A stretch of 64,000 bases of DNA from Owenia fusiformis (taxonomy: Eukaryota; Annelida; Polychaeta; Sabellida; Oweniidae): NCBI GenBank assembly GCA_903813345.2, contig CAIIXF020000004.1, forward strand, positions 25,297,985-25,361,984, read 5' to 3'. This document shows, piece by piece, positions 3,101 to 53,637 of this stretch. The position numbers and the translations under genes were made by a program. Position 1 is the first letter of the stretch; the number at the start of each line of letters is the position of its first letter. The notes below the pieces were generated by a model. It searched no databases. It worked only from the letters and a program-made list of their open reading frames with translations, and was not told where the DNA came from.

Positions 3101-6100
3101 CTTTGAAAAGTGTTCTTCTTTTCAAATGTTGCATTATACATGCTTTACTGTACTTTAAATATGTTGGAACAAAAATTGGAGTTCAAGTGTCCAGCATAAT
3201 TCTTGGAAATAATTTTCAAGCAGTTGCCATAGTTTATAATACATGTAATAGGGTTTATGACATCATAGTTAGATATTTTTAGCTCCTGAAGATACATGTA
3301 TGAGTTTTTTGAGAAATCTCAATCATGATAAGAGTGTTGCAATAATGAATAATGGATTACGGGAATAATTCAGGATGAGAGTGTTGCTTAGAAATTTTCA
3401 ACTCATGTAAGTTAACTCATAAAGGTATAGGTAGCTGTTAAAATTGATATTAATTAATATTGTTATTTTACCAAAAAGTCATAAAGGAATATCTGAATAT
3501 CAAATTGATATCAGAAGTATCTGCATTTGGAGTTGCTTCATTTTTAAAAAACAGGGACATTAAAGAGGGATCCTGTCTGCAATATTTTGTCTTGATTTCA
3601 GTGCACTGAACCACTGGACCTGTATATCTCAACATCTATCTAATCTGAACACCTCTCAATGTGAACACTTTTCTCAGTCCCTTTAATCTCTTATTGGCCA
3701 ACATGTTGAAAAACCTTGAAATGTGAACACCTGCTAGTCCAAACACTCTTGGCCAGCCATGGAGACGTTCGGTTAGACAGGTCTTACTGTACCTACAATG
3801 TAAATATGCATCAAAATAAACTTTAAATCGATTGTATCTGAACTGAACTAACAATGAGTTTCTTATTGTGCATTTAGGACCCTAGCCATGATAAAACCAG
3901 ATGCCATCTCCAACATGGGTCAAATCATCGACCTAATCTGCAAGACTGGCTTCAATATAACAAAACTTAAGATGGTGAGACTAACGAAGAATGAAGCTTT
4001 TGAGTTCTACCAGGAGCACCAGGGGAAACCATTCTTGGAGTAAGTACCAACTATCAGAAAATCATTCTTGGAGTTACCCAATATCAGAAAACCATTCTTG
4101 GAGTTACCCAATATCAGAAAACCATTCTTGGACTGAGTTACCCAATATCAGAAAATTATTCTTGGAGTTACCCAATATCAGAAAACCATTCTTGGAGTAA
4201 GTACCCAATATCAGAAAACCATTCTTGGAGTTACCCAATATCAGAAAACCATTCTTGGAGTAAGTATCCAATATCAGAAAACCATTCTTGGATTCAAAAT
4301 TAAACAGCCGCTTAGAGTAAGTACCCAATATCAGAAAACCATTCTTGGAGTAAGTACCCAATATCAGAAAACCATTCTTGGAGTAAGTACCCAATATCAG
4401 AAAACCATTCTTGGAGTTACCCAATATCAGAAAACCATTCTTGGAGTAAGTATCCAATATCAGAAAACCATTCTTGGATTCAAAATTAAACAGCCGCCAT
4501 TTGCCACTTCAGAATTTGAATAGTAATATTTTGTCTTATTTCCAATCAAAAAATTTCAAAACACACACGAAGTGATCAAGATATTAGTTAAAATATTTTG
4601 AATTGATGATTATGAATTTATAGCCATTTATAATGTCAGACAATAACAAACTTTTCATTGTTGACGTCGGTATTGCAAGAATATCAGCCATTCTCCTTGC
4701 AACTTGCATACATGTGTTCTTTGTCTTAGAAATAAGCACTGAAAAAATTGCCTGGAGATTAAAATATTGAGTTGGATCCATGGGATCTAAACCTCGTTGT
4801 GTAAGGCTCTGCCAATGTATTGTACATTTGTATAATATATCAATGTATTATACAATATGTCAATGTATTGAATAATATGTCAGTATATTGAACGATATCT
4901 TGTTTTAATAATTAATGATAAAGGAACCAATTGAAAACTAAAACTAAAAGACTTGAAGGACGATGAAAGGTCTTTTAAATCCAATGAATTTTGACATTTC
5001 GCCATCTTAATTCTTCAATAACATGTAGATTTGACCACATATCATTGGAAAAATGTACAATCCCTTCTAATTCTTTTATACTTGTAATTGATGTTCCATT
5101 TTCAGAACACTGTTGAGCTTTATATCAAGTGGACCTGTGATAGCAATGGAACTAATGGGAGATAATGCTATAGGGAAGTGGAGAGACACTCTTGGTCCAA
5201 CAGACTCCTCTATTGCAAGGAGTGCAGCTCCTATGAGTATACGTGCAAGGTTTGGAACGGGTGAGTAATGCACTTTTGACATGTCTTGTTTCAGAGGTAG
5301 TTTGTACATAGTAAGGGACATCATTTGCAATTTTAAAAAACGTTCTCAAACAAGGGTGGATGAGGGGTCTAGTTAAACCAATGGATTATATCTTTAATTA
5401 GACTTTTGAGAGAACCTATAAATAAATACACTTAAAAGAAATGTGTATAATGCTTTTTCAATATGTTAATCAAAACAATTTATTAATTTCGTTAATTCAA
5501 ATTATTATTCTCAATTTACAGATAACACTAGAAATGCTTGTCATGGCAAAACAATTTATTAATTTTGTTAATTTAAATCATTATTCTCAATTTACAGATA
5601 ACACTAGAAATGCTTGTCATGGCTCGGATTCACCAATTTCTGCAGCGAGAGAAATTGAATTCTTCTTCCCAACTGCCGGAATAAATCGTCAAAATACAGC
5701 TCAGTTTAACAACTGTACTTGTGCGGTCATTAAACCACACGCAGTTCTAGCAGGTAAATATAGATGGCAGATACGTTGAAATATTGTGTTCTGATTGGTC
5801 AAGGGGATGATGTCACTTTATGAGTAAAAATGAGTGATCAAATCACTTTATATCACCACCAAAGTGGGGACATATTGTTATGGTCTCACGCTTTTTGTGA
5901 CACCGGTTGTGGTCAGCATTCAGAGTTTGGCATTTATAACAATTTGCAATAACTTACAAGGTGGTGCAGGGGCATAGCCAGGAATCTGCAAGGGGTGTGT
6001 GATTTTTTGGGTTTGCATCACTGCAAGCCCTAAAAAGGGGGTATGGGGTTTCACTCTTGGAAATTTTTAAAAATTTACATTTTATATGGGGCATTCCAAG

Positions 6101-9100
6101 CATTGTGAACTATAATTTGTTAATGTTTTTATAAATTTTACAAAACTGCTTTTTTTATTTTGTTGGGTTTGGGGAGAGGAGTGGACGTAATTTTCACAAA
6201 TGTGATTAATAAGACTTGTTTCCATGTGATTTTACAGTAATAAATTGACATGTCAAAATGAGGGGCAAAAAATGACATGACATATATTGATGTGTCATAA
6301 ATTGACATGACATAATGTTTGAAGCATTTCTTTTTAGGTCAAACTGGAAAAATAATCAGCGCAATTCAAGACGCACATTTCGAGATCTCAGCCATACATA
6401 TGTTTCACATAGAGAAAGCTAATGCTGAGGAATTCTACGAGGTTTACAAGGGAGTGGTCCAAGAATATAACAGGTGAATATCATATTTTCTTACTTACAT
6501 AAAGGACCTTAGGAGGGATTATATATGGGATTTATCCTGCAGGGTGATATGATATACAAAAAACCTGTAAGGTGGAACACTTCGTAAGTGGAACACTTCT
6601 AAAATTACAAGTGAAACAACTCTGTAAGTGGAACACTAGCCTTGCCCAAGTAGAGACCGACTTGGGCAAGGCTAGTGGAACACCTCCATAAATGAACACT
6701 TCAGAGTTCCATGATTATTTTAGATAATGAATGGTAAATTATAATCAGAATAAAATGATAGATTCATTTAAGACATGCTGGGTAAATTGACTAAAATGAT
6801 GACAAGAAGATTTTTCCATTTCACAAATGTTAAAACAACACCCCAAACTGATTTCATGCTTGGTCTTAATATGTTTTAATTTCATCATCTTGATCCGTTT
6901 GAAACATTTATGCACCTTACGAGTTATTAGGCTTGAAATAGAAATGTATATAATAGGAGCCTAGGACACCAAAAGGCCTTTAGTGGTACTAGACTATCAT
7001 GTGTTGAAAAAACTACAAGTTGGGCTCAATGAAGAAATTATCTTACATTTGAAAGCCATGTCTTATTATTGATGCCTGGACCCTTTGTTATTTTTTAAAA
7101 CTTTAATAATTAATAATTGGGTATTTCAGCATGGTAATGGAGGTCACTTCAGGCCCATGTATAGCATTAGAGATCAGAGCCCAAGATGCTCCTAATGTTT
7201 ATAATATGTGATAATTGTATCTTACAGCATGGTGATGGAGCTCACTTCAGGCCCATGTATAGCATTAGAGATCAGAGCCCAAGATGCTCCTAATGTTTAT
7301 AATATGTGATAATTGTATCTTACAGCATGGTAATGGAGGTCACTTCAGGCCCATGTATAGCATTAGAGATCAGAGCCCAAGATGCTCCTAATGTTTATAA
7401 TATGTGATAATTGTATCTTACAGCATGGTAATGGAGCTCACTTCAGGCCCATGTATAGCATTAGAGATCAGAGCCCAAGATGCTCCTAATGTTTATAATA
7501 TGTGATAATTGTATCTTACAGCATGGTAATGGAGCTCACTTCAGGCCCATGTATAGCATTAGAGATCAGAGCCCAAGATGCCCCTAATGTTTATAATATG
7601 TGATAATTGTATCTTACAGCATTGTAATGGAGCTCACTTCAGGCCCATGTATAGCATTAGAGATCAGAGCCCAAGATGCCCCTAATGTTTATAATATGTG
7701 ATAATTGTATCTTACAGCATTGTAATGGAGCTCACTTCAGGCCCATGTATAGCATTAGAGATCAGAGCCCAAGATGCCCCTAATGTTTATAATATGTGAT
7801 AATTGTATCTTACAGCATTGTAATGGAGCTCACTTCAGGCCCATGTATAGCATTAGAGATCAGAGCCCAAGATGCTCCTAATGTTTATAATATGTGATAA
7901 TTGTATCTTACAGCATGGTGATGGAGCTCACTTCAGGCCCATGTATGGCATTAGAGATCAGACCCCAAGATGCCCCTAATGTTTATAATATTTGATAATT
8001 GTATCTTACAGCATGGTGATGGAGCTCACTTCAGGCCCATGTATAGCATTAGAGATCAGAGCCCAAGATGCTCCTAATGTTTATAATATGTGATAATTGT
8101 ATCTTACAGCATGGTAATGGAGCTCACTTCAGGCCCATGTATAGCATTAGAGATCAGAGCCCAAGATGCCCCTAATGTTTATAATATGTGATAATTGTAT
8201 CTTACAGCATGGTGATGGAACTCACTTCAGGCCCATGTATAGCATTAGAGATCAGAGCCCAAGATGCCCCTAATGTTTATAATATGTGATAATTGTATCT
8301 TACAGCATTGTAATGGAGCTCACTTCAGGCCCATGTATAGCATTAGAGATCAGAGCCCAAGATGCTCCTAATGTTTATAATATGTGATAATTGTATCTTA
8401 CAGCATGGTGATGGAGCTCACTTCAGGCCCATGTATGGCATTAGAGATCAGACCCCAAGATGCTCCTAATGTTTATAATATTTGATAATTGTATCTTACA
8501 GCATGGTGATGGAGCTCACTTCAGGCCCATGTATAGCATTAGAGATCAGAGCCCAAGATGCCCCTAATGTTTATAATATGTGATAATTGTATCTTACAGC
8601 ATGGTGATGGAACTCACTTCAGGCCCATGTATAGCATTAGAGATCAGAGCCCAAGATGCCCCTAATGTTTATAATATGTGATAATTGTATCTTACAGCAT
8701 GGTGATGGAGCTCACTTCAGGCCCATGTATAGCATTAGAGATCAGAGCCCAAGATGCTCCTAATGTTTATAATATGTGATAATTGTATCTTACAGCATGG
8801 TAATGGAGCTCACTTCAGGCCCATGTATAGCATTAGAGATCAGAGCCCAAGATGCCCCTAATGTTTATAATATGTGATAATTGTATCTTACAGCATGGTG
8901 ATGGAACTCACTTCAGGCCCATGTATAGCATTAGAGATCAGAGCCCAAGATGCTCCTGATGTTTATAATATGTGATAATTGTATCTTACAGCATGGTGAT
9001 GGAACTCACTTCAGGCCCATGTATAGCATTAGAGATCAGAGCCCAAGATGCCCCTAATGCATTCAGAGAAATGGTGGGACCAGCTGATCCGGTAAGTTAT

Positions 9101-12100
9101 ATGATAATTTTTTGAAATGTGCAGTACACAGGAGTTCCAGGGATGCAGTTTGTAAAATGTTGGAAACAATATTTATAATTTTTCATAAATTATGCCAATT
9201 ATTTCCTTAAAATCTAGTTAGGTTTTAGACATGTCTGAATAGTCAAAATATGTAGAAACGCAGTCTCCATGGCAACTTGCATTAAATAACATAAACCAGG
9301 CCAACCTGGCATTATGAAACTAGTAATATTTAGTAGTCCAAAAACTATGCCAATACTCCCATTTGCATATTTTGTGATGTCATGGGCATTATTTCCACTT
9401 TTTGCATTAAAAATTTTATTTTATTGTTATGAAAGTAATGTAGATGCCAGATGGTGAATAATCAAACCAAGGGCAAAGCCAAATCAGAAATTAGTGAGGT
9501 AAATGTAAATATAGGTGAGGCTCTTTGAGGCTAAAGGAGGAGTGGAGTTCAATTTAGCTGAATGTATATATTTCTTGAAAATTTGGTGAGGCAGTTGCCT
9601 CGACTGCCTCATGCCTCACTAAACCCATGTAAACTTTTTTATGTGTACTTTCAAGAGGTTAACTGACTTCTACTTTGGCGCTTCTAAATTTGGCGCTAAT
9701 TATTTTGGCGGATTAGCTGTTTTGAACATTTAATTTGCAATATTGAAAAATATGGCGAACTTCAAAGGGTGCACTTATGAGCCCAATCTCATCCTTCTTG
9801 TTTGACTAGTAAATTATCATTGGTTCATTTAAAGTAGTTGAGAATGGATATATTGTTGGTGTTATTGTACAAAAGCGACGAATTTGAACAATTTTTTTTT
9901 AAAAGACATAATATTCAACTCAAAAATTTGGTTTTGATTATCCCCTGGAATTAAGGAATTTGGCGGCGACTTAACAATTTGCCCAAATTAAAATGGCCAC
10001 CATATAAGGTAGAAGTATCGTACTAGTTTCATACTGATCATGGTATACATAAATAAAAATGCTGTGTTTGTTGCTCATTGATTTATTTATTATTTCAGCA
10101 GTCACTGTTCATTTAAACTATTAATTTAGAAATAATAGTTCTTCACAATAGATCATCACATTAACAATACCTTGAAGTATGTTACTTGGATGTCTTTATG
10201 TACTGTACATGTATATGCAACTATATAACTGAAAAAGGATCACACAAAAATGCAACCCTTTACTTTTGGAATTGTATAGGACAAAATTTTGCTTTTGCGG
10301 GAAACAGATTACTCATTTGAGAGCTTATACACATATCAAATTGAAGAATCGTCCACCTAGACATGCTCTCACTATTAACCATGTGTTGTTATCTTTTCCA
10401 AATTTAGTTAGCACACGACTCAAGATAGCTGATATAATATAACTTTCCAATTGATGTTCCAACAATGAGACGGCCCTGTTTGTCCACTACAACCCCTGAG
10501 GGGCCGACAATATTATCTTCCTTGGTCACCAATAGCTTGATAAACTTTCCATGTGAATTCAAGAGATGCACTGAGTTGGTGCCATAACTCGCAACAATAA
10601 TGTTGTCAAAAGGATCAGTGCATGTTCCCCAGGGATGTTGTAGCTGAGCTTGCTTTTTTAGTCCTTCATATTGTATTAGAGTATCACCTTGTGGACCAAT
10701 AACTTCCAAACTGTTGTTACTGTAGAACGAGAGAATGATCTCATTTCTTGAATTAACTGCAATACAGGGAGGGAGAAAATCATTATTTACACTAAGTGTA
10801 TTGATTAAGGTTTTGGTTTGAGAGTTCATGAGTGATATTTTACCTCCAAAGTATGCTATCAATGTTCCATCTGGTGTGGCTGCAACTGACCAAGCCATAT
10901 ATGGCATTGTAGTGTCAATATTTCCATTATTATCAACCAATTTAAGAGTGCATGATTCGGAATCCAGAGCTGCAATTTGATTGTTTGGAGCTGAGGCAAC
11001 ATAACTACAATCCATCGTAACATGTAACTTCTGTTCATGTGTGACAGGGTCTATGATATTAATACCATCTTTAGCATGAGCTGTAACAATCTCACCATTG
11101 TCTAAAATAGCAAGATCGTGTAATTCAATATTTTCATCTTTGAAGGGAGCTACATCTTTTTCAATCTTAATGTTTTCTTTGATAATGTTCTTGAGCGATG
11201 AAACTTGGCCAAATTGCAGCCCCGGGGTCTTCGATGTCCCATATGTATATGTTAACTTGAACTTAGAATCAAAATCCAATTCTTGAGGTTGTGACCACTC
11301 CTCCGTCTTCTTTGTGATCTCTTTTCTCATGTTAATGATTTCAGCTGGGTGCCCATATTGTTGTTGGGTATCAAGGAGATGTCGTGTGCTTACTGTGATC
11401 CCATTTTGCATTTGGAGACTACTGATATGTGCATCTACTTTCTTTAAGCCTTCAGATTTAAATCTTTCCACCTTGGCTTCTTCTCCATTGTAGTATTTAT
11501 CGATTAATTCATGTTGGGCTTGTCTATCTTTGGTTATCTTGGTTTTCATATCTGATGCATTTCTTTCAATTTTCTCTTTATAGTCATTCATTTCCTGAAT
11601 AACTGCATTTACATTTTCTTCTCTCTGCAGAGATATTTGGATGAGGGATCTGATGTTTTTCATGTCTTGTTTGACATTCTCATTCAAATTCTCACATTTG
11701 TGTCCGCTATGTGTAGTTATACAACAATCCCTGCATAAGACCTCATTGCAGCTTCGACAGTAGAACTTAAATTGTTCATCGGGATGGGACGTGCAGAATT
11801 TCATTCGCTTTGGGATCATCTCAAGTAAAGCGCTAGTGTCTTTACGATCATCTCCAGTTATTTGAATAACTTTATGATCCTTCAACGCTTTAATGTTACT
11901 ATGTACTCTGGTGCATTCTTTACATATATATTGATCACAGTCTATGCATTTGGATGTTGCCTTGACCTTTTCATCTTCGTTTAAACAGATGTCACAATGT
12001 CTGATAGTACTGTCACTTTCCTTTTTTAGTCGTCTCCGTAAGGTGTCTAGCATGTCATTGAGGATGTAGTTGCCCTTAAGGCCTTTGGCGCCCCCTGTTG

Positions 12101-15100
12101 GTGGTTCAAACTCAATGGTACAAACAGGGCATGGGCATTTCCCTTGTCCTTTTTGATTGATCCATTTGTCGAGGCACCCACAGCAAATCGTATGCATACA
12201 GGGAGTCACCTTGGGGTCAGTTAACAGTTCAAGGCATATCGGACAAGTGAGGACCTCTCGATATGTTTCCTCATCTTGATTTCCTGATGAAGCCATTGAA
12301 ATACCTGAAATGTAAGAATGATGGAAATATTAGTTCTTTCTACTATAGTCTTTCATTTGGTTTCTGCTACAGGTAGGTGGAGGTATCATAAGTAATGGAA
12401 GACAGATATTGAATGATGACCAATTCATGGGTCCATACAGCCTAATCCAGCCATTATAAACCATAGGACATTGGAATTATGTCATCTAATCTGAGCCTAC
12501 ATGTAGATTTAGGCTATAGAGAAACAAAAACATTTACAAAAAATAAACAAGGCATTAACATGACAAAATGGCACCATCTAGTTGCTCACAATATTATGAG
12601 TTCAATCTAAGTCAGATTTAATTTCTGGGAACTTGTAGATGATTTAAAAAAAAAGATTGGTCAATTTGAGGCAAGTTGAAAGAAGACCTTTTTAACCTGG
12701 AGAAGGTCATTGAAGGTCAAATCTCAAATCAGATTTGAACTTTTGATAACTTGTAAACGATTTAAAAAATAAATTGGTCAATTTAAAGCAAGTTGAAAAA
12801 GACCTTTTTGACCTTATTAACCTTTTTTGACCTTGAAAGGGTCATTGAAGGTCAAATCTTAAATTTAAAGTCAGATTTGAACTTCTGAAAACTAAAATTG
12901 AAGTCAGTCTAAACAGTATTTGTTATTGGTTATTCAAAGTTGTAAGAATTTGTTAAACGCCAACTGCCACCAGCTGCCGTCACAAACATGGAGACCATAA
13001 CAATATATCACCACTTTTTGGTGTTGACATAATTAGCCTTGTAGAAAGCGTTAGCATTTGTCAATTTTTAAAATTTGGATATCTGTTTCCAAATGAAACG
13101 GCTCTCAATTTGCTCTTCAGATCTCAAATTCTAGTATTGTCAAATTGAGAGTCTTTCATAAGGCTATAATAGGCTACTGAATGTCATTGCTTGCTTGAAG
13201 CCCCTGGACCAACCACCCTTGTGGTAAAATGGAGGAGGGGGTCACAAGGGCTTGTAGCTAGACTTTGTCAATGTTAAATCTGATCGTGTTGTGAAGTTGT
13301 GTTTCTGAAAAATTCAAAATGAAATTGAAATTTTGAAAAGCAGGGATGTAAATATGTAAAATAGCATTCGATTTTGAAAAATTATACAGATTGACACAAA
13401 TTTTTGTTACCTGGCTATATAAACATATGCTAAACTCTAGATATTGTCGATTAAAACAGCTTTGTTGGCGATTTGTCTTTTACTTTTCTTTTGATTTTTT
13501 CACTTCCGGTTCAGAATAGTCTCAAAACAAAACTTAATCGCTTTGTTATGTCATTATCTAGTGAAATATTAAAGTAGTAATACAACAATGGCAAAATATT
13601 AGAAAACATTTAACATGTATTACACATAACTTTTCTTTTGTTATATTACTCAGAATATATGTAAATTAAAAAAGGTTTTGAGACTAGTTTGGTCATTGAT
13701 GAACAAAGGATGGGGAGGGGTATAAATCTTACATGTATATCTATAGATTGCTTCTTTTAAAGGCCATGGTTTTTCTGGGATGAAATGTCTTGAGTTCAGA
13801 TGTCTGTGGTGAAATATATCTGTGATGAAATGTCTTACAGGTGGTAAAACGTCCAAGGCAAAATTTAGGCATGATTTTTTATAGCAGATAAGATATGACT
13901 TAGACTTACTCACTTCGAGAGCCATGTTAGATTTTGAAACTTATGGCTCTCAAACGGAGAAGTGAACAGCTGATCAATAGTGACCTTTGAAATTGAATTA
14001 AGTCGATCCGCGGCTTACTTTTGGTCTCTAACTGTGTCTTACATCAGTATCATCAATCCGTGTAAGTATTGGAGCGCTGGAGTACTTCTTTTTCGATCAA
14101 GACTTGTAAATTGTTCATCGAGTTAAAGTTTTACAGACCTATTTCCAATATGGCGGTTTGCTAGGTGCGAGATACGCAACGAACGAAATGAATTTTGAGA
14201 ATTAGTTAGGTTCGGACAACCTCCGGAGATTTACGAAAATGTCCGAGCAGAAACCGCCATATTGGAATTTGGCAGTAAAACGATTCACTCGACTAACAAT
14301 TACAAGTCTTGATCGAAAAAGAAGTACTCCAGCGCTCCAATACTTACACGGATTGATGATACTGATGTAAGACACAGTTAGAGACCAAAAGTAAGCCGCG
14401 GATCGACTTAATTCGATTTCAAAGGTCACGATCATTGAGCTGTCCAAATGCTCCGTGGGAAAGCTATTATATCAAAATCCAAATAGCTTTCGCAGGAAGT
14501 AAACTTAGACCAGACAAGGATGTTTCATAGATTAGATCTATAGCTAATGGAAGCAATTTGTAAAGCCTGTAAATATGTCTGTAAGATGTATGCTCCTCAA
14601 TGGACAAAAGTATATTGAATTCATATATTTTTAGGAAATTGCCCGACATTTACGACCGAGGACTCTACGCGCCTTATTTGGTAAAGACAAGATTCAGAAC
14701 GCTATTCACTGTACAGATCTCCCAGAAGACGGCTTGTTAGAGGTAAATTTTAACAAAGAAATCCTGTGATGCTTATGTTTTAATAGAAACACAGTTTCCA
14801 TTTTGTAAAATAACAACAACTCTCTCTTCCAGTTTTAATAACACTCGATCATGGGCATTAAGATTTTTCAATATTTTTGCTCATTCCTTTGTAATACAGT
14901 TTTAGAAAAAGTTCTTTATTTCATGATTTTATTTATTATAATTATATTATTATTTGGTATAATTCTAAAAACACTTTTCTAATTTTAAAGAGTTTGGACA
15001 TATCTGAAAGTTTACCTTGAATTGGCCTGTGAAATAAAAAATATCGCTGTTATATAGTTACATCCTGAACATGTGGTACCACTTGAAATAAATAAGAAGG

Positions 15101-16193
15101 GATAGAGAGTTTAAAATGTTGGTAACAATCTTCAAAAAATCATGTCAATATTTTCCTGGCAGTTGGACAGTCATTTATTTTCTGAAAAAATTGGATCTGT
15201 TCACAATACTGTATGTAGTTAATTTGAATGTTGATGAGTTGATAATTTGAAATGTCCAAATTCATTAGAATTTTGAAGGGAGGGGGGGGTGTCAAATCGA
15301 TGGATTATCCTGGAATAAAGTCAGAACTGTAAAAAATTACCCCCATAAATGTGGCGTCGAATTGGCGTTTTTTTTCTTATATTTTTATCATTCTTCACTA
15401 AAATATTAAAAAACGCCAATTCGACCCCACATTTATGGTGGTATAAAAAATAGGCATATCGTGGAATGATGATAGCAAAAAATATGATAAAACTGTCATA
15501 ATTTTTTAGAAAATCATTTGTCGGTCTTCAACACTTCTGGTCCCTTTTAACTGACATGCTAACATGCTTTTGAAACATGGATATCATCATAGGTTTTAGA
15601 CCAATATAAAGATGGCTACATTGCTGGAATTTTATAATATTCGCTCTTGAGAAGATACATGTATGTGAGACAGATGGATTGCACTGCCATCTTTATTTAA
15701 AAACAATTATATCATTGAAACAAATAACCAACAGTCAATACAAATTAACATAAAAACTTTTATTACTAGTAAGATTAATGTGGTAAGGATATTTTAGGGT
15801 ATTTTAGAGGTCCAGCCTCGTAATTAAAGGTTCCAAGAGTTCTAGCTTAGATACATGGAAATCCAGAAAATTTGGAATCTTCTATCCTAAATCTTTATTT
15901 AGTACCCCTCATACATTTTTATCATATTCTTTGATGTATCGTAGAAAAATGTTCAAGATAATTTGGCTCATGAAGTTCATAATTTGTGATGCACATTTTT
16001 TTGTGCAGACATTAATAGTAATACATGTATCAAAAAAATTTAAGTCATGACATTTAAGCATCTAAACCTTTGTTCGATTAACATTGACATTTTGATGGGA
16101 CCACCTTAGCATGGATATAATGATTAATGCAAAATAACATTTTTCTTTTTTTCTTTCCAGGTGGAGTATTTCTTCAAGATCCTAGACAGGTAA
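178..16193 (+). CDS. NME7: NME7 (nucleoside diphosphate kinase homolog 7), ten exons, 376 aa
   Basis: Coding exons, all with GT-AG borders: 178-180 (ATG only), 1236-1346, 2289-2455, 3878-4039, 5106-5260, 5598-5753, 6338-6473, 8992-9091, 14635-14742, 16161-16193 (stop TAA). Phases are consistent throughout and the sum is 376 codons plus stop, equal to human NME7. Domains: DM10 at about residues 1-90; NDK A about 92-225 with the IKPDA motif and active-site type NACHGSD (H207); NDK B about 235-376 with IKPHA and NAIHCTD (H355). The family protein is an inner-lumen component of axonemal doublet microtubules and associates with the gamma-tubulin ring complex; how much kinase activity each NDK domain keeps is family knowledge, not visible here. 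Start: the ATG directly abuts donor GTAAGT, and exon 2 continues ANQDERFAFIVEWYD, matching the family N-terminus. A TRIM gene lies antisense in intron 8, and exons 4, 6 and 8 carry amplified borders. A second exon 9/10 pair lies downstream, so the 3' end may be alternative. Confidence 0.93.
708..955. repeat. foldback element in NME7 intron 1
   Basis: An imperfect inverted repeat: the left arm near 708-755 (GGGAGATG, then a block around TATGGGGCTACTTCGACCA) is complementary to the right arm near 885-950 (TGGTCGAAATAGCCCCAT, ending GATCTCCC). No clear target duplication was found. The short open frames across it are palindrome translations, not genes. The rest of intron 1 (181-1235) shows nothing else recognisable. 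Confidence 0.5.
1347..2288. other. NME7 intron 2, no recognised gene
   Basis: Intronic sequence between exons 2 and 3. It contains a GC-richer stretch around 1660-1860 and a cluster of ACGCATTT/GTCACGCA words at 2000-2230, which may be an old simple repeat. Short frames here have no protein-family features. Confidence 0.4.
2456..3877. other. NME7 intron 3, repeat-bearing
   Basis: It holds an 18-base poly-C tract at 2506-2523 and a diverged tandem repeat at about 2610-2830 built on TTCCACTTACAGAGGTT and CATTAAGTGAATG words. A related GTAAGTGGAACAC series recurs at 6570-6690 in intron 7. The stretch 3630-3810 (clustered GAACAC words, then GGTTAGACAGGTC) looks like the end of an old DNA element but cannot be delimited. 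Confidence 0.4.
4026..4495 (+). repeat. tandem array of the NME7 exon 4 donor border
   Basis: Fourteen copies of the ATTCTTGGA core occur at 4031, 4064, 4094, 4124, 4158, 4188, 4221, 4251, 4284, 4341, 4374, 4408, 4438 and 4469, in units of about 30 or 33 bases. Each unit carries the last bases of exon 4 (AAACCATTCTTGGA) plus either an intact donor GTAAGT (after copies 1, 6, 8, 10, 11, 13) or a degraded GTTACC. Two units (copies 9 and 14) instead run into ATTCAAAATTAAACAGCCG. The first copy is the true exon border. Reading through it gives GAG TAA, an immediate stop, so none of the downstream donors can make full-length protein. Confidence 0.95.
4500..5105. other. remainder of NME7 intron 4
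   Basis: AT-rich intronic sequence with a small run of CAATGTATT/ATAATATGTCA repeats at 4810-4890. No gene or element recognised. Confidence 0.4.
5471..5622 (+). repeat. 76-bp tandem duplication of the NME7 exon 6 acceptor border
   Basis: Copies 5471-5546 and 5547-5622 each hold an AT-rich intron end, TTTACAG, and the first 25 bases of exon 6. The upstream copy would read NTRNACHGKTIY then stop, so the downstream acceptor at 5597 is the functional one; it continues into SDSPISAAREIEFFF of NDK domain A. The copies differ by only a few bases in the intronic part. Confidence 0.93.
5754..6337. repeat. NME7 intron 6 with a dispersed repeat fragment
   Basis: Positions about 5850-5960 (ATCACCACCAAAGTGG, then CAGAGTTTGGCATTTATAAC) resemble 35138-35250 (GTCACCACCACAAGTGG, then CAGAGTTTGGCATCTGTAAC), so both are copies of one dispersed repeat. 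At 6240-6310 there is a short run of TTGACATGTCA/TGACATGACATA words. Confidence 0.55.
6570..6690. repeat. AAGTGGAACAC repeats and hairpin in intron 7
   Basis: Repeated GTAAGTGGAACAC words are followed by an inverted pair, CTAGCCTTGCCCAAG at about 6638 and CTTGGGCAAGGCTAG at about 6661. The words recall the 2610-2830 repeat of intron 3. The remainder of intron 7 up to 7129 shows nothing recognisable. Confidence 0.55.
7130..9091 (+). repeat. 20-copy, 98-bp array of the NME7 exon 8 acceptor and exon start
   Basis: Exon-like starts (C after the acceptor AG) fall at 7130, 7228, 7326 and every 98 bases to 8992, with no length variation across 19 steps. Each unit has TTGTATCTTACAG followed by the first 25 or so codons of exon 8 (MVMELTSGPCIALEI and on), then VYNM and a TGA stop. 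Only the last copy (8992-9091) continues with AFREMVGPADP into donor GTAAGT. The first copy has a different upstream (GGGTATTTCAG), which may be the ancestral intron end. Copies starting at 7914 and 8404 share private variants (TATGGCATT, AGACCCC, TTTGATAATT), pointing to a later five-unit duplication. Confidence 0.97.
9092..10379. other. 5' part of NME7 intron 8
   Basis: Mostly unremarkable AT-rich sequence. A weak foldback may span about 9666-10017 (ACTTCTAC and TTTGGCG words on the left, GGTAGAAGT and CCAAATT on the right), resembling the style of the element at 20256-20589. No gene seen apart from the antisense TRIM that begins further right. Confidence 0.35.
10404..12296 (-). CDS. TRIM-type RING/B-box/coiled-coil/beta-propeller protein, copy 1
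   Basis: An intact 630-codon single coding exon. The RING finger C3HC4 uses C18, C21, C33, H35, C38, C41, C56 and C59. B-box 1 is about residues 101-141 (C101, C104, C117, C120, C125, C128, H132, H141) and B-box 2 about 168-199 (C168, H171, C180, C183, C188, C191, H196, H199). A charged coiled coil spans about 205-320, and the C-terminal third (about 390-630) has NHL-like blades, including DPFDNIIVAS and VVDKQGRLIVG. This is the architecture of predicted E3 ubiquitin ligases related to TRIM45/TRIM56/TRIM71-type proteins, which are expanded in many invertebrates; substrate is unknown. Start: the ATG is preceded eight bases upstream by a splice acceptor (CATTTCAG on the minus strand), so a 5' UTR intron is likely. 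The gene is antisense inside NME7 intron 8. Confidence 0.93.
   Translation of the reverse strand: MASSGNQDEETYREVLTCPICLELLTDPKVTPCMHTICCGCLDKWINQKGQGKCPCPVCTIEFEPPTGGAKGLKGNYILNDMLDTLRRRLKKESDSTIRHCDICLNEDEKVKATSKCIDCDQYICKECTRVHSNIKALKDHKVIQITGDDRKDTSALLEMIPKRMKFCTSHPDEQFKFYCRSCNEVLCRDCCITTHSGHKCENLNENVKQDMKNIRSLIQISLQREENVNAVIQEMNDYKEKIERNASDMKTKITKDRQAQHELIDKYYNGEEAKVERFKSEGLKKVDAHISSLQMQNGITVSTRHLLDTQQQYGHPAEIINMRKEITKKTEEWSQPQELDFDSKFKLTYTYGTSKTPGLQFGQVSSLKNIIKENIKIEKDVAPFKDENIELHDLAILDNGEIVTAHAKDGINIIDPVTHEQKLHVTMDCSYVASAPNNQIAALDSESCTLKLVDNNGNIDTTMPYMAWSVAATPDGTLIAYFGGKISLMNSQTKTLINTLSVNNDFLPPCIAVNSRNEIILSFYSNNSLEVIGPQGDTLIQYEGLKKQAQLQHPWGTCTDPFDNIIVASYGTNSVHLLNSHGKFIKLLVTKEDNIVGPSGVVVDKQGRLIVGTSIGKLYYISYLESCAN
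12297..13949. other. 5' intron and upstream region of TRIM copy 1
   Basis: Minus-strand non-coding sequence whose acceptor AG is at 12305-12306. It aligns with the copy 2 region (pieces of 22540-32500), interrupted there by insertions. A possible first exon ends near 13917, where the minus strand reads CTCGAA then GTGAGT; this donor is tentative. A short frame starting at 13925 (minus strand) has no family features and is out of frame with the TRIM start if that donor is used. Confidence 0.45.
12613..12900. repeat. diverged tandem repeat of about 117-142 bp
   Basis: Two and a bit units, starting at 12613, 12730 and 12872. Each opens with CAGATTT and contains TTGGTCAATTT, GCAAGTTGAAA, GACCTTTTT and GGTCATTGAAGGTCAAATCT. 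Confidence 0.8.
13950..14455. repeat. foldback element with arms of about 200 bp, copy 1
   Basis: The left arm (about 13965-14165) is the near-complement of the right arm (about 14250-14455). Paired words include GCGGCTTACTTTTGGTCTCT with AGAGACCAAAAGTAAGCCGC, and TATTGGAGCGCTGGAGTACT with AGTACTCCAGCGCTCCAATA. A relative lies at 50005-50825. It is absent from segmental copy 2, so it is either an insertion after the duplication or a loss in copy 2. No transposase is present. Confidence 0.9.
14743..16160. other. NME7 intron 9 with a small hairpin
   Basis: AT-rich intron. A 34-base-arm hairpin at 15341-15442 pairs CCCCATAAATGTGGCGTCGA with its near-complement TCGACCCCACATTTATGG, across an AT-rich loop. 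No other feature recognised. Confidence 0.6.
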
Positions 16194-20641: not shown

Positions 20642-22537
20642 TTAGTTGACACATGACTCAAGGTAGCTGATATAATATAACTTTCCCCTTTTTCCAACAA
20701 TGAGACGGCCCTGTTTGTCTACTACAACCCCCGTTGGATTTGAAATCTGATCTTCCTTAGTCGTTACCAATAGCCTCAGAAACTTTCCTTTTGGATTCAA
20801 GAGATGTACTAACTTGTTGCCATTACTCGCTACTATTATGTTGTCAAATGGATCAATGCATGTACCCCAGGGATTATTTAGTTCTTCTTGGTCTTGTCCT
20901 TGATATTTGAACAGATTCTTGCCATTTTGACTAATACCTTCAACAGAGTTATCATTGTTGTAGGCAATAATGATTTCATTTCTTGAATTCACTGCAATAC
21001 TTGGAATTATACCATCATCTTTCACACTAAGAACTTTTTCTTCTTTGGTTTTGGTTTTGGTGTTTATAAATGATAGTTTACCATCCTTGAACACAACCAC
21101 TGTTCCCTCTGGGGAGATAGCAGTTGAATAAGCATCCACTGATGGCATTGTAGTGTCAATATTTCCATTACTGTCAAGTAGTTTCAGAGTGTTTGAGTCA
21201 CCATCTACAGCTGCAATATGATTATCTGGAGCTGAGGCAACAGAACCACAGTTCATGTCAACATGTAGCTTTTGTTCATGTGTGGTAGGGTCGAGGATAT
21301 TTATACCATCCTTGTGATGAGCTGTAACAATGTCCCCATTGTCCAAAACAGTGAGATCCTGTAATTCCATTTTTTCATCTTTGAAGGGAGCTACATCTCT
21401 TTCAATCTTAACATTGCCTTTGATAATATTCTTCAGCGACGCAACTTGACCAAACCGCAGCCCCAAAAATACTGATGTCCCATGGGTGTACGTTAATGTG
21501 AACTTAGAATCAAAATCCAATTCTTGGGGTTTTGACCACTCTTCCGTCTTTTTCATGATCTCTTTTCTCATGTTGATGATTTCAGCTGGGTGGCCGTATT
21601 GTTGTTGGGTATCAAGGAGATGTCGTGTGCTTACTGTAATCCCATTTTGCATTTGGAGAGTATTGATATGTGCATCTACTTTCTTTAAGCCTTCAGATTT
21701 AAATCTTTCCACCTTGGCTTCTTCTCCATTGTAGTATTTATCAATTAAATCATGTTGGGCTTGTCTATCTTTGGTTATCTTGGTTTTCATATCTGATGCA
21801 TTTCTTTCTATTTTCTCCTTATAGTCATTCATTTCCTGAATAACTGCATTGACATTTTCTTCTCTCTGCAAAGATATTTGGATAAGGGATCCAATGTTTT
21901 TCATGTCTTGTTTCACATTCTCATTCAAATTCTCACATTTGTGTCCACTATGTGTAGTTATACAACAATCTCTACAAAGGACCTCATTGCAGCTTCGACA
22001 GTAGAACTTTAATTGTTCATCGGGGTGGAATGCGCAGAATTTCATTCGCTTTGGGATCATCTCAAGTAAAGCGTTAGTGTCTTTGCGATCATCCCCTGTT
22101 AGTTGAATGACCTTATGGTCTTTTAAGACTTTAGTATAAATATGTGACTTTGTGCATGCTTTGCATATGTATTGATCGCAATCTATGCATTTGGATGTTG
22201 CCTTGACCTTTTCATCTTCATTTAAACAGATGTCACAGTGTCTGATGGTACTGTCACTTTCCTTTTTTAGTCGTCTCCGTAAGGTGTCTAACATGTCATT
22301 CAGGATGTAGTTGCCCTTAAGGCCTTTGGCGCCCCCTGTTGGTGGATCAAACTCTATGGTACAAACAGGGCATGGGCATTTCTCTTGTCCTTTTTGATTG
22401 ATCCACTTGTCGAGGCACCCACAGCAAATCGTATGCATACAGGGAGTCACTTTGGGGTCAGTTAACAGTTCTAGGCATATCGGACAAGTGAGGACTTCTC
22501 GATATGTTTCCTCATCTTGATCTCCTATTGAAGCCAT
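20642..22537 (-). CDS. TRIM-type RING/B-box/coiled-coil/beta-propeller protein, copy 2
   Basis: An intact 631-codon paralog of the 10404-12296 gene, with the same RING, two B-boxes (all metal ligands kept) and coiled coil. The first about 330 residues differ from copy 1 at roughly two dozen positions by eye, many of them clustered just after B-box 1 (CKACTKSHIYTK against CKECTRVHSNIK). The C-terminal propeller is much more diverged although the frame and blade motifs (DPFDNIIVAS, VVDKQGRLIVG) persist. A predicted E3 ubiquitin ligase; the propeller would set target choice. The 5' splice acceptor just before the ATG (CT at 22546-22547 on the plus strand) is conserved with copy 1. Its 5' intron is where the retrotransposon and dimeric element inserted. 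Confidence 0.93.
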   Translation of the reverse strand: MASIGDQDEETYREVLTCPICLELLTDPKVTPCMHTICCGCLDKWINQKGQEKCPCPVCTIEFDPPTGGAKGLKGNYILNDMLDTLRRRLKKESDSTIRHCDICLNEDEKVKATSKCIDCDQYICKACTKSHIYTKVLKDHKVIQLTGDDRKDTNALLEMIPKRMKFCAFHPDEQLKFYCRSCNEVLCRDCCITTHSGHKCENLNENVKQDMKNIGSLIQISLQREENVNAVIQEMNDYKEKIERNASDMKTKITKDRQAQHDLIDKYYNGEEAKVERFKSEGLKKVDAHINTLQMQNGITVSTRHLLDTQQQYGHPAEIINMRKEIMKKTEEWSKPQELDFDSKFTLTYTHGTSVFLGLRFGQVASLKNIIKGNVKIERDVAPFKDEKMELQDLTVLDNGDIVTAHHKDGINILDPTTHEQKLHVDMNCGSVASAPDNHIAAVDGDSNTLKLLDSNGNIDTTMPSVDAYSTAISPEGTVVVFKDGKLSFINTKTKTKEEKVLSVKDDGIIPSIAVNSRNEIIIAYNNDNSVEGISQNGKNLFKYQGQDQEELNNPWGTCIDPFDNIIVASNGNKLVHLLNPKGKFLRLLVTTKEDQISNPTGVVVDKQGRLIVGKRGKLYYISYLESCVN

Positions 22538-22605
22538 TGAAATACCTGAAATGTAAGAATGATAGAAATATTAGTTCTTTCTACAGTCTGTCATTTGGTT
22601 TCTAC

Positions 22606-29264: not shown

Positions 29265-31673
29265 CACATGCTATCTATTGCAAGACTTACGCCTGCCACA
29301 ACCGTCACCATGTTAATCAGTGTTTTTTAAGTAGCGCAAGGATCCTGCCATGACCGTGGTAGTGTTATCGTGTAAGCCTGGTATAACCGTGACAGGCTGG
29401 TATAACCGTGACAATGCTGAAGTGTTATCGTGGAAGCCTGGCGCGACCGTAGCCTTTATTGTGGTTTATAAGCGAATGTGAATATTAATGTATAGTCAAG
29501 GAGGATTGGCTCCCAGAATGCAACACCGATATTCTGCAAAACAATCACCTAGCGATAGCTTTGTTGGAGAGTATCGGGTCATTCTCCATGCAGTCGTACA
29601 AATTATACAGACACGAATAGCAAATGACGCATGCGTGGAGATTAAAGAATATCGAGTTGGAACCCTGGCTTCCAATCCTCCTTGTGTATAGTAGTAATTT
29701 TGATTTTGACATGATTAAGGAAGTTAAACACCATGATCATAGTATTAAACTGTTTAATTGTAATGAGGATCACTTAAAATTGTTAAGGATATTCCTGGCA
29801 TTAATGTCATACATATTTACTAGTCATTGCAATACATTATAACGGTCATAGTAGAACTAAGCCTAAATCTCTATATTACCACCCTCATACCTGGCCTTGC
29901 AATACTATATTACATTGTCACAGTCATACCAGGCTTTGCGATCCCATAATACATTGTCATGGTCATGCCAGGTTTTCAAATACACATTGTCACGGTCAAT
30001 TATAGCAATCATAAATTTCTACTATCACCACTCTCATACCCGAACTTGGAATACTATATCACATTGCCATGGCGGTCATACCAAGCCTTGCAATACTATA
30101 TTACATTGCCATGGTCATGCCAGGCTTTGCAATACACATTGTCACGGTTATAGCAGTCCTAATCGTAAATTTCTACATTACCACTCTCATACCTGAACTT
30201 GCAATACTATATTACATTGTCACGGTCATGCCAGGCTTTGCAGTACTATATTACATTGTTACGGTCATACCAAGCCCTTGCAGAACTATATTACATTGTC
30301 ACGGTCATGGCAGGCATTGCAATATAATACAGCATTGTCGCGGTTATACCAGGCTTTCACAATAACATTACCACGGTCATGGCAGGATCCTTGCGCTACT
30401 TAAAAAACACTGAATAACATAGTGACGGTTACGCCAGGCGTTAGTCTTGCAACAGATAGGGTCTCCACATGCTATCTATTGCAAGACTTACGCCTGCCAC
30501 AACCGTCACCATGTTAATCAGTGTTTTTTAAGTAGCGCAAGGATCCTGCCATGACCGTGGTAGTGTTATCGTGTAAGCCTGGTATAACCGTGACAGGCTG
30601 GTATAACCGTGACAATGCTGAAGTGTTATCGTGGAAGCCTGGCGCGACCGTAGCCTTTATTGTGGTTTATAAGCGAATGTGAATATTAATGTATAGTCAA
30701 GGAGGATTGGCTCCCAGAGGCCAGAATGCAACACCGATATTCTGCAAAACAATCACCTAGCGATAGCTTTGTTGGAGAGTATCGGGTCATTCTCCATGCA
30801 GTCGTACAAATTATACAGACACGAATAGCAAATGACGCATGCGTGGAGATTAAAGAATATTGAGTTGGAACCCTGGCTTCCAATCCTCCTTGTGTATAGT
30901 AGTAATTTTGATTTTGACATGATTAAGGAAGTTAAACACCATGATCATAGTATTAAACTGTTTAATTGTAATGAGGATCGCTTAAAATTGTTAAGGATAT
31001 TCCTGGCATTAATGTCATACATATTTACTAGTCATTGCAATACATTATAACGGTCATAGTAGAACTAAGCCTAAATCTCTATATTACCACCCTCATACCT
31101 GGCCTTGCAATACTATATTACATTGTCACGGTCATACCAGGCTTTGCGATCCCATAATACATTGTCATGGTCATGCCAGGTTTTCAAATACATATTGTCA
31201 CGGTCAATTATAGCAATCATAAATTTCTACTATCACCACTCTCATACCCGAACTTGGAATACTATATCACATTGCCATGGCGGTCATACCAAGCCTTGCA
31301 ATACTATATTACATTGCCATGGTCATGCCAGGCTTTGCAATACACATTGTCACGGTTATAGCAGTCCTAATCGTAAATTTCTACATTACCACTCTCATAC
31401 CTGAACTTGCAATACTATATTACATTGTCACGGTCATGCCAGGCTTTGCAGTACTATATTACATTGTTACGGTCATACCAAGCCCTTGCAGAACTATATT
31501 ACATTGTCACGGTCATGGCAGGCATTGCAATATAATACAGCATTGTCGCGGTTATACCAGGCTTTCACAATAACATTACCACGGTCATGGCAGGATCCTT
31601 GCGCTACTTAAAAAACACTGAATAACATAGTGACGGTTACGCCAGGCGTTAGTCTTGCAACAGATAGGGTCTC
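29265..31673. mobile_element. head-to-tail dimer of a 1.2-kb inverted-repeat element with 8-bp target duplication
   Basis: Unit 1 is 29265-30465 (1201 bp) and unit 2 is 30466-31673 (1208 bp). They abut with no intervening bases and differ mainly by a 7-base insertion in unit 2 (AGGCCAG near 30715) and a few substitutions. CCTGAAAA flanks the pair at 29257-29264 and 31674-31681. The ends of each unit are long inverted repeats (TATCTATTGCAAGACTTACG against AGTCTTGCAACAGATA, then TTTTTTAAGTAGCGCAAGGA mirrored). Much of the interior is a decayed series of about 43 bp units with CGGTCATACCAGGCTTTGCA in both orientations. No transposase; the 8-bp duplication suggests a hAT-like mobiliser. Confidence 0.92.
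29490..29692. repeat. nested inverted-repeat insert inside unit 1 (and its copy in unit 2)
   Basis: Ends TATAGTCAAGGAGGATTGG and CCAATCCTCCTTGTGTATA are inverted, enclosing about 160 bases unlike the surrounding CGGTCAT repeats. The matching segment of unit 2 is about 30690-30900. A loosely similar piece (GGAGGGTTGACTCCCAG, then CGATATTCTG) is at 47255-47295. Confidence 0.65.
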
Positions 31674-34103: not shown

Positions 34104-34211
34104 GAAATTGCCCGACATTTACGACCAAGGACTCTACGCGCCTTATTTGGTAAAGACAAGATTCAGAACGCTATTCATTGTACAGATCTCCCAGAAGATG
34201 GCTTGTTAGAG
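34104..34211 (+). CDS. NME7: duplicate NME7 exon 9 (exon 9')
   Basis: 108 bases with acceptor TTTTTAG and donor GTAAAT. It encodes the same 36 residues as 14635-14742 (EIARHLRPRTLRALFGKDKI through the NDK B His motif to EDGLLE). Three base differences from exon 9, all synonymous (CCG/CCA, CAC/CAT, GAC/GAT). Phase 0 at both ends, so it can replace exon 9 without changing the frame. Confidence 0.88.
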
Positions 34212-36783: not shown

Positions 36784-36816
36784 GTGGAGTATTTCTTCAA
36801 GATCCTAGACAGGTAA
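36784..36816 (+). CDS. NME7: duplicate NME7 exon 10 (exon 10') with stop
   Basis: Acceptor TTTTTCCAG, then VEYFFKILDR and TAA, identical in sequence to 16161-16193. The following bases (CCATGGCAACTGCATGATTG) are also shared. A possible polyadenylation signal AATAAA is at 37220. It would terminate transcripts that use exon 9'. Confidence 0.85.
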   Translation: MEYFFKILDR

Positions 36817-39641: not shown

Positions 39642-40835
39642 TTAGTTAACTATGTATTTTAACTCTTTCATTCTTTTGATGATCTTTCTACTATATGGCC
39701 ACTCTTGCATAGCAAGCTGCCGACAAAGTGTAGCATCAACCGCATCATCATTAAGATTATACCCCATAACCGTGTCATCTTTGTAATCGGCTTTAAATTC
39801 AGGGTCCACAATTTCTGTACCCGGAACCATGTCTTTGACACAAAAGTCGTACCATTTCTTGTTAGTATCTCGAAGCTTCTCGACTTCAATAGTAAGTTTA
39901 TTTCGACCATATTTCTCTACCTTTTCCCAAAATGTTTTATTGAAGTAATTATAGAGACGTACGTCACCAGAATTCCATTTCCTGAGGAGTTCTATTGTTT
40001 CTGATGTAATTTTCTTCTTGGGCTTACGGTTTTTAATTTTGGTTAAATACACAATGTCTTCGGTTGACCAGTTCAAAATATCACGCATTAAAACTAAACT
40101 CTCATCGAAATACTCAGTGAGCATGACCAAGTCAAAGTTTGCGCTAATTTCCTCAACTTTTTCAGTTACAAGAACATCGTTTATTGTATCATTTGATTCT
40201 AGTCCAAAATCAAATAACATCATGTTTCTTGTTGGAAGTACACACCATTTGGCACTCTGTCCACCTTTTACAACAATCTGGGCAAAATCGTCTATTGTCC
40301 CAACACCATTGTAACAGTTCTTATAACCAAAATAGTTGAAGGCCGATACGAATTGTGTATCCGGATTTCTTATGATTGTTATGGATTTTGTCCCTTTAGG
40401 CATTACTTTATGGACATCTGTGCTATATCGCATGTGGTGGGCGATCATGTTGAAGGGTTCCGTCGATTTCATTACATATTTATCTGAGAAAACCTTAGGA
40501 TATTCAAATATATTAATACCTGATTGGAGTCCTAGGGGAATGGCCATATTAAGGTCATTGTTATCTGCAAATCGGAAAAAAAGGTTTTGTAAAGTTGAAC
40601 TGCCAACTTTATGCAGCTTTAGAAAAATCACATTTTTCTGTATTATTTTGCTTTCTTGATATGCCCTATTTGTGTCAGCCTGCGTTTTAGCCTTTTCTTG
40701 AGCATGGCCTCCAGTGTCGCTAATTTCATCCAGATGCAAGGTCTTTTGGAATCCCACGTGGTTCATGATAAACAGAAACCACAGTAACATAATCAAGCTT
40801 AACAGACATAACTTAATTATGAAAGTTTTATTCAT
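39642..40835 (-). CDS. galactose-3-O-sulfotransferase family protein, copy A
   Basis: 397 codons. A type II membrane protein: short cytosolic N-terminus, signal anchor at about residues 6-24, a short stem, then a lumenal sulfotransferase domain. The PAPS 5'-phosphosulfate loop is FLKLHKVGSSTLQNLFF (H75-T81) and the 3'-phosphate motif is TIIRNPDTQFVSAFNYF (R156, S164). The family (galactosylceramide and Gal-3-O sulfotransferases, Gal-3-0_sulfotr) moves sulfate from PAPS to the 3-OH of galactose on glycolipids or glycans in the Golgi. The coding region is a single exon. It is in tandem, same strand, with copy B at 43356-45050, and the C-terminal halves are practically identical. The exact acceptor cannot be predicted. 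Confidence 0.92.
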   Translation of the reverse strand: MNKTFIIKLCLLSLIMLLWFLFIMNHVGFQKTLHLDEISDTGGHAQEKAKTQADTNRAYQESKIIQKNVIFLKLHKVGSSTLQNLFFRFADNNDLNMAIPLGLQSGINIFEYPKVFSDKYVMKSTEPFNMIAHHMRYSTDVHKVMPKGTKSITIIRNPDTQFVSAFNYFGYKNCYNGVGTIDDFAQIVVKGGQSAKWCVLPTRNMMLFDFGLESNDTINDVLVTEKVEEISANFDLVMLTEYFDESLVLMRDILNWSTEDIVYLTKIKNRKPKKKITSETIELLRKWNSGDVRLYNYFNKTFWEKVEKYGRNKLTIEVEKLRDTNKKWYDFCVKDMVPGTEIVDPEFKADYKDDTVMGYNLNDDAVDATLCRQLAMQEWPYSRKIIKRMKELKYIVN

Positions 40836-40908
40836 TATGAACGGTTCAAGAGAAGTATCCGCCTTAGAGTTATATGGTTTTATTTTTTGTTTGGTTTGTT
40901 CCTTTTAA

Positions 40909-51166: not shown

Positions 51167-51599
51167 TGTAACAGTTTGGCCTATTTTTGTGGATATACGT
51201 GGTAGCGTGGCTAATAATAGGCCCACTGTTTAGTAAACGGTGTTTACTTGGTGAGTTACACGGCACACGTTAAATGTGCGATTGTCCCTAAAGAATTAAA
51301 CAGACATATACAATTAAATATAAAATATAAAACAGTATATTGTGGCGTTTATAAGCCCAAATAAAGATGTACATTAAATTTCAAGTCTAATTATAAGAGT
51401 GTTACGATTTTAATATCTCTCTCAAAACTCACAACTCAAAAGTCCATATAAGCTAATAATAATCACTAAGAACACAATATCCAGAGTCCATGTAAATTGA
51501 AGCTGATGATCAATATATCACTGTTGTATCTCCAATATTAAAAGTTCATATATGTTGTAATACTTGTACGTCTTGTATTGTACTTGTAACTTGAACCTG

Positions 51600-52735: not shown

Positions 52736-53637
52736 TATCACAATCTTCAAACTACCAAGTCCAAGGACATCTAATACACGGCATCAACTGCTAAGTCCAT
52801 GTAGCCTGCTTCCTTCACAATTAAATAATAAGGCTACCTACAAATATAGCATGCACACAACGACATATGCAAAAATATAACATATGAAAATATTTGACCT
52901 CTAAAATGACTAAGTTCATTTAATGTTAAGTGATACTGATATTAAAATATTCTAAGTTCAATATTTCTCTTTCCAAAAACAACAAAGTCCAAAATAATGT
53001 TTCAACAAATATTGACTAAGTTAATTTCATACTAAGTTATACTGATGTTAAAATATTCTAAGTTAAATATTTCTATCTCCAAAAATAACAAAGTCCAAAA
53101 TAATGTTTCACCAAATACTGACTAAGTCCAATAATGTTGTAAATCGTCTAAGTTCCTTGATGATCAAAATAGCTTGTTTCTCAAACACAAGTTATGTCAG
53201 CATTTCCTCTCAGTCTATGAAGGCTGGACAATACGTCTAATGCTTTGCGCTGGGGATAGCTTCACCCTGTTGAAGTTTTGTCCAGTCTTGTAGATCTCCC
53301 TTACTTCCAGTGCGATAAATAAACTAAGTCTCACACACTTAGTTGCATCAAAGTTTTCCCAAAATTCCAATCTCCAAAATAAACTAAGTTTCGCACACTT
53401 AGTTTCCTCAATCTGCCCTTGTATACTGCAAACGTATAGCTTGGCTCATCAGATGTATTCTACTAAGGTACAGCTTCTATCTTCATGTGTATACTGCAAA
53501 CGTATAGCTTCAACTCCACAAAATCGACTAAGTTCTATAAAACTTAGAAGATTTTAGCTGTTTCCCGAAATTCCGCTCTGGAGGTCCTTCCTCGACAACA
53601 TCTGGCATCGCACTGACGATCCTTCAACAGCGAGATA

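Follow-up and report, generated by a model that had tools for sequence, protein, structure and literature searches.

A 98-bp minisatellite across a splice acceptor of NME7 in the annelid Owenia fusiformis, and similar arrays at splice boundaries of other genes

The window analysed here is a 64,000-nucleotide stretch of the Owenia fusiformis assembly GCA_903813345.2 (contig CAIIXF020000004.1, positions 25,297,985 to 25,361,984 of the forward strand), and its left part contains an NME7 gene. A tblastn search with human NME7 as the query finds the exons collinear along the + strand, between 1239 and 16187. From these matches together with splice sites and open frames, the exons are assigned to 1236–1346 (the first coding exon recognised), 2289–2455, 3878–4039 (supported also by a donor scan, its 3′ end and donor being repeated), 5106–5260, 5598–5753, 6338–6473 (directly 5′ of the main array described below) and 8992–9091. 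Two more follow on the same strand, one at 14635–14742 (EIARHLRP...DGLLE; tblastn, donor scan and frame check) and the last coding exon at 16161–16193 (VEYFFKILDR-stop; tblastn, with boundaries set by eye). The seven exons through 9091 join into a single open frame of 329 amino acids whose best match among solved NME7 chains is 8snb_4J (E 1.9e-143). The exon at 8992–9091 encodes MVMELTSGPCIALEIRAQDAPNAFREMVGPADP, a 33-residue peptide for which solved NME7 chains are already found when it is searched by itself (best E 8.6e-13), and three aligned NME7 chains pass across the 6473/8992 junction without an insertion. The gene name given in the initial annotation, which was made from the letters of this DNA, is thus borne out. 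The number it gave to this exon, exon 8, stands if one ATG exon is assumed upstream, since six recognised exons precede it in the window.

There are several other features of this region. The last two NME7 coding exons recur about 20 kb downstream (34104–34211 and 36784–36816), with 105 of 108 bases of the penultimate exon matching and an identical 36-residue translation, and the duplicates are possible candidates for alternative 3′ ends. Two unbroken open reading frames of 641 and 642 amino acids (10404–12329 and 20642–22570, both on the minus strand) are 86% identical in DNA and by eye resemble RING/B-box TRIM-NHL proteins; the first lies antisense within an NME7 intron. Further right are two ORFs that look sulfotransferase-like by eye (39642–40904 and 43356–45152, both minus strand), the second of which has a 21-bp coding minisatellite (44397–44866) that was not seen in the first. 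A tandem duplication of 6.3 kb (51167–57490 and 57677–64000, 99.98% identical) holds an ORF that by eye has zinc-knuckle motifs and resembles the gag of a retroelement, and could be either a very recent duplication or an assembly duplicate. Two minisatellites in the window (29885–30354 and 31093–31565) share a 39-bp unit, which is also present in reverse complement at positions 17–367 of a sampled locus on another chromosome, C2 (L008), adjoining a Pdx-like homeobox; judged by eye, this is a putative dispersed minisatellite family.

The main array lies at 7113–9059 on the + strand, where TRF finds a period of 98 bp, 19.9 copies, 97% matches, 0% indels and a score of 3607, which is far above chance. 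Exon starts fall at 7130+98k for k=0 to 19 (7130 to 8992), and all 19 steps are exactly 98, as had been claimed for the array. The first 68 bp of each unit are shared with the start of the exon, and the remaining 30 bp are the end of an intron, closing with the next acceptor, TTGTATCTTACAG. The array had been described as twenty exact copies, which is true of its period but not of its letters: the 19 full 98-bp units comprise 11 variants with nine variable columns and a mean pairwise identity of 97.36%. Copy 20 is the one that leads into single-copy sequence, continuing into CATTCAGAGAAATGG up to the donor CCG/GTAAGT (a slash marks the splice boundary) at 9091/9092, and the copy together with its continuation forms the 100-nt functional exon at 8992–9091. 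The nineteen decoy units (7130–8991) have translations that resemble MVMELTSGPCIALEIRAQDAPNVYNM, some with one to three residues altered, and in all nineteen a frame check finds an in-frame TGA after 26 codons. Copy 20 alone is open to the 9091 donor, and both of these features had been correctly anticipated. Eight of the variable columns are in the exon part of the unit, and by eye five of them alter the encoded residue, the other three being silent.

The acceptors themselves are well preserved. AG is kept in all 20 copies. Over the 25 bases 5′ of the exon start, 16 of the 19 decoys show no difference from the functional copy, and 18 agree with it at 23 or more positions. The most divergent is copy 1, with 18 of 25 bases as in the functional acceptor, and its upstream flank agrees with the unit at 20 of 31 bases; the earlier description of the upstream acceptors as near-identical needs a correction for copy 1. 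We also considered whether the array has higher-order repeats, as the variant order resembled repeated blocks, a pattern that would bear on concerted evolution within the array. A shuffle test with exact variant classes gives p values of 0.37 and 0.40, and values of 0.048 and 0.044 were obtained solely when two classes were pooled with closely related ones; the variant order is therefore not used as evidence here.

Arrays of this kind are described in the globin, Adh3, TnC and PGBD5 genes of amphioxus, where they are termed mirages (PMC3087553, PMC3902484). The NME7 array is a mirage in the same sense, being a minisatellite whose unit lies across an exon-intron boundary, and its authentic site is an edge copy that leads into a single-copy exon (copy 20, at 8992). 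A DNA search of the 498-Mb assembly (525 contigs), in which very common words are skipped and the best candidates alone are scored, finds the array once. This single occurrence would be compatible with a short or single-copy exon start having been inflated during assembly, but the 11 distinct variants among the units, and the presence of arrays differing in period and sequence at many independent loci (see below), make such an artefact most improbable. Copy 1 is preceded by an intron of its own with an AG acceptor and is the copy that a process scanning the intron would reach first, which would fit use of the first acceptor and loss of this NME7 copy. Against this, the seven exons form a stop-free frame of 329 amino acids, two more exons with homologous frames are present downstream, and no second full NME7 is seen among the 12 genome matches listed, nine of which correspond to the exons of the window or the downstream duplicate and three of which are weaker and lie on C9 and C10. 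We consider loss of the gene very unlikely.

Donor sites within the array were scored in bits with a human donor matrix. On this scale the strongest cryptic donors in the decoy units have 4.85–5.06 bits, and the eight real NME7 donors have 4.56–10.41, the weakest of them being ATG/GTAATA (4.56). The statement that the decoys have no good donor is thus close to correct, but the weakest real donor is no better by the human matrix. The junction in the array is CAG/CAT rather than AG/GT, and the closest donor-like site is an ATG/GT that lies 4 nt inside the unit and is present in 16 of the 20 copies (4.85–4.98 bits by the human matrix). A second GT, at unit offset 78, could give an exon of 78 nt, which is a multiple of three and from which the TGA would be spliced away, and the array copies might then be joined as additional coding or cassette exons. 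This GT scores just 1.65 bits by the human matrix and is missing from copies 9 and 14, the intron to the following copy would be 20 nt, and the three aligned NME7 chains have no insertion at this junction. We therefore find it scarcely believable that the copies serve as extra exons.

The exon part of each unit closes with CCTAATG. By eye, the CTAAT within this motif fits the branch-point consensus yUnAy, with its A 32 nt ahead of the point where the next acceptor ends. The sole substitution private to one copy is at column 64 of copy 19 (8894–8991), the last decoy, where CTAAT is changed to CTGAT just 5′ of the real acceptor. Of all the acceptors, the real one alone thus has an altered branch-point-like motif, and a local cue for acceptor choice is therefore possible. 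Edge copies in arrays frequently differ, and since this substitution was also noticed post hoc we treat it as a lead.

There are two further mirages within NME7. The first is a donor mirage at 4026–4478 (+ strand; TRF, donor scan and sequence) with a 33-bp period and 14.4 copies, the units being mostly 30–33 bp. It repeats the end of the exon at 3878–4039, CCATTCTTGGA/GTAAGT, and GTAAGT is kept at seven of the 13 listed GA/GT sites, one of which is authentic and six of which are decoys; one decoy outscores the real site (7.02 versus 6.14 bits by the human matrix). The second is an acceptor mirage at 5471–5623 (+ strand; TRF and tblastn) consisting of two copies of 76 bp, in which the first 25–26 bases of the exon are doubled. 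The decoy exon start is at 5522, the authentic one is at 5598, and the decoy has a stop after 12 codons. Between 1236 and 16193 there are seven distinct TRF arrays with a period of at least 20, of which three lie across a splice boundary, although this is not a fair rate because the gene was chosen for one of the arrays.

To look beyond NME7 we sampled 90 loci of about 3.2 kb, comprising 14 with homeobox matches, 28 with myosin head matches, 28 with dynein C-terminal matches and 20 with kinesin matches, the kinesin loci having been added afterwards as a replication; genes were thus chosen by family and not at random. Counting arrays with a period of at least 20 and at least 1.8 copies, and merging overlaps, there are 60 distinct arrays in the sample. 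At least eight of these span the splice boundary at one side of a coding exon, as found by an open-frame scan (of the 46 arrays of 70 loci, and of the kinesin arrays) and by eye; eight is a lower bound because the procedure can overlook short exons, as well as arrays at the ends of loci. One candidate (L034, with a 17-bp period and 2.2 copies) falls below the period cut-off of 20, and another (L021) was rejected because its array begins past the exon. The initial annotation had presented the array as a peculiarity of one NME7 exon, and this is not supported, as NME7 itself has two more such arrays and further ones are found in genes unrelated to it.

The families of these genes (homeodomain, myosin, kinesin, dynein) come from searches, and the names Scr, KIF3-like and KIF4-like are our own assignments from sequence. 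Three of the exons have Pfam matches above the cut-off, and these have acceptor mirages in Scr (L004, units mostly 75–76 bp), in a myosin (L030, 61 bp) and in a dynein (L046, 91 bp). Three others have Pfam matches below the cut-off together with supporting gene context: a myosin donor mirage of four 41-bp copies (L037, E 0.0022), a KIF3-like acceptor mirage with a 93-bp unit (L075, E 0.00025) and a kinesin acceptor mirage of 17 copies of 64 bp (L087, E 0.00083). Two are less certain. One is a probable donor mirage with a 100-bp unit in the dynein locus L046, where the array starts at base 1 of the locus and the authentic copy is out of view, and the other is a probable donor mirage of 14 copies of 61 bp in L079, whose exon is without a Pfam match. 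An additional case on C2 (L091) has 18 kinesin matches to the same 38 profile positions, spaced 159 bp apart, and corresponds to a KIF4-like exon; of its 18 acceptors 17 are decoys, and every decoy has a stop after 44 codons. This locus was picked for its pattern and therefore carries no rate information and is outside the count of 60 arrays.

The homeobox loci have some features of their own. In the homeodomain search the matches form a run on C1 at 17.97–18.47 Mb, with one more at 56.85 Mb on C1. Translations were made for 12 of the 14 loci, leaving two minus-strand loci, and include a KLTGP motif that follows the Lox5 homeodomain, as well as tails of Lox2/Lox4 type (KEINEQ- and KDLNES-like) and homeodomains of Post1 and Post2 type; these assignments from signatures are our own. 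The signatures are spiralian and speak against amphioxus, which had been a first guess for the source, and the layout fits Owenia fusiformis. A GFP family search and a search with a lancelet fluorescent protein, both of which would be expected to succeed in a lancelet, gave no matches, although such negative answers prove little, and a COX1 search for the mitochondrion gave none either. Locus L012, at one end of the Hox run, has two Post2-type homeodomains (1150–1326 and 1501–1677) that are 351 bp apart, start to start, and from its sequence is a predicted tandem-duplicated homeobox.

The mirages vary in how well their decoys are preserved. AG is kept in all 68 acceptors that could be located by position or exon sequence, a count that diverged units would escape and from which Scr is left out because its search pattern requires AG; the copy numbers for Scr and for other arrays located by exon pattern are lower bounds, because such patterns miss diverged units. 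Decoys with at least 23 of the 25 upstream bases as in the functional copy make up 15 of 15 in L087, two of three in L075, two of three in L046, one of three in L030, two of nine in Scr and two of 17 in L091. Eight of the nine Scr decoys have a stop, and the nearest decoy (L004 1403–1478) is in frame into the real exon, so that its use would lengthen the protein and not truncate it. The KIF3-like mirage (L075 1835–2114) differs in another way, in that all four units found have TAG/GTATG and each acceptor could therefore double as a donor (dual-specific), unlike those of NME7. Assuming 1 to 3 splice boundaries per kb, random placement predicts 2.7–8.0 boundary-crossing arrays among the 60, against the at least eight seen; the boundary density is assumed, and the estimate therefore says just that strong purging is not seen. 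The observed eight is at the top end of the random expectation; these numbers neither establish nor rule out an enrichment, for which a further cause would be required.

We propose that the NME7 array is probably a neutral minisatellite that was born across the acceptor, one of many in this genome, and that copy 20 is picked by exon definition. The 98-bp unit would have arisen by chance across the acceptor of an NME7 exon and expanded by tandem duplication, while the donor and the remaining part of the exon stayed single-copy, and productive message would come from splicing to copy 20 alone. In exon definition an acceptor is paired with a donor across a short exon. Pairing a decoy acceptor with the 9091 donor gives an exon of 198 to 1962 nt, as compared to 100 nt for copy 20, and the acceptor that closes the short 100-nt exon with a strong downstream donor would win; by the same logic the first donor would be taken in donor mirages. 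More generally, a genome that generates many minisatellites would have some arise on splice boundaries, with splicing coping, and neutrality would follow. The initial annotation had also put forward exon definition as a possible explanation for the skipped decoys, and we find it the natural one.

The strength of these arguments varies. The anatomy, the frames, the local identity of the decoys and the recurrence in other genes are observed directly. We infer the exclusive use of copy 20 from the reading frame alone, and at the NME7 array we infer exon definition and neutrality as well. In their immediate surroundings most NME7 decoy acceptors do not differ from the real acceptor, and acceptor choice is therefore probably by position. 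The poorer local identity of the decoys in the KIF4-like, Scr and myosin L030 mirages counts against the proposal, as do the private substitution in copy 19 and older experiments with duplicated splice sites, in which a site close to the opposite end of the intron can reportedly win; such a preference would favour copy 1.

The decoys could alternatively be used to a meaningful extent, with the in-frame stop leading to nonsense-mediated decay and the copy number of the array tuning NME7 output. The retention of AG in all nineteen decoys and of a nearly unchanged 25-nt context in eighteen would suit such a role, as would the stop after 26 codons in every decoy, and a cassette running from the acceptor of copy k to the weak donor 4 nt into copy k+1 would be 102 nt long with the stop inside. 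However, the same architecture is present in unrelated genes at a rate within reach of random placement, early stops past the junction would be expected in AT-rich intron sequence, and with five changing and three silent columns no coding constraint is apparent in the decoys. Moreover, amphioxus mirages are reported not to disturb regular splicing (PMC3087553, PMC3902484). We thus regard tuning of NME7 by the array as unlikely. A broader version, in which boundary minisatellites are so common that many genes carry rows of near-equal competing sites, some of them leaky, and the extent of nonsense-mediated decay depends on copy number in a way that is inherited and might also vary somatically, as a genome-wide expression rheostat, seems to us distinctly unlikely. 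A neutral origin with exon definition remains the reading we prefer. The arrays are natural competition assays, with up to 20 near-equal acceptors per intron that differ mainly in their distance from the donor. Long-read cDNA of one species could measure the effects of distance and exon length on site choice in many genes together.

Several known systems have features in common with these arrays. Poison exons act by alternative splicing coupled to nonsense-mediated decay (AS-NMD), and resemble the NME7 decoys in being exon pieces with an in-frame stop (19 of 19), but the decoys are without a strong donor of their own. The same lack of a strong donor, with an in-frame stop in each decoy, distinguishes them from tandem exon duplications that yield mutually exclusive exons. 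The polyubiquitin gene UBC has a dual-specific array in which, similarly, a splice signal recurs once per tandem unit. Its sites, however, lie between coding monomers and can each work as a 5′ or a 3′ site, giving isoforms that vary in monomer number (PMC10809524), whereas the NME7 unit has CAG/CAT in place of the AG/GT of dual-specific sites and its decoys are non-productive by frame. Internal tandem repeats in human segmental duplications are a further case in which minisatellites at an exon edge can alter gene structure, and there recent changes in paralogs are tied to exon or intron elongation (PMC2812944); in Owenia the extra copies appear to remain intronic and the product unchanged.

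The closest likeness is to the amphioxus mirages of Adh3, the globins BflGb6 and BflGb9, troponin C and PGBD5, in which the unit spans an intron-exon boundary at an acceptor or donor and many units retain splice signals (PMC3087553, PMC3902484). Length instability is also reported for them. They differ in that they are from another phylum, and the arrays described here are in several gene families of one genome; the copy numbers differ too, with BflGb6 having six and three units in two haplotypes compared to 20 and 18 here. No report of mirages in annelids was found in the open-licence PMC literature, and what seems new is their presence in another phylum, where they are apparently common in one genome and have copy numbers above those of the globin cases. 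In the work on amphioxus globins, mirages are put forward as material from which new introns could arise (PMC3087553), and a second, distant lineage with seemingly common mirages would allow that proposal to be tested.
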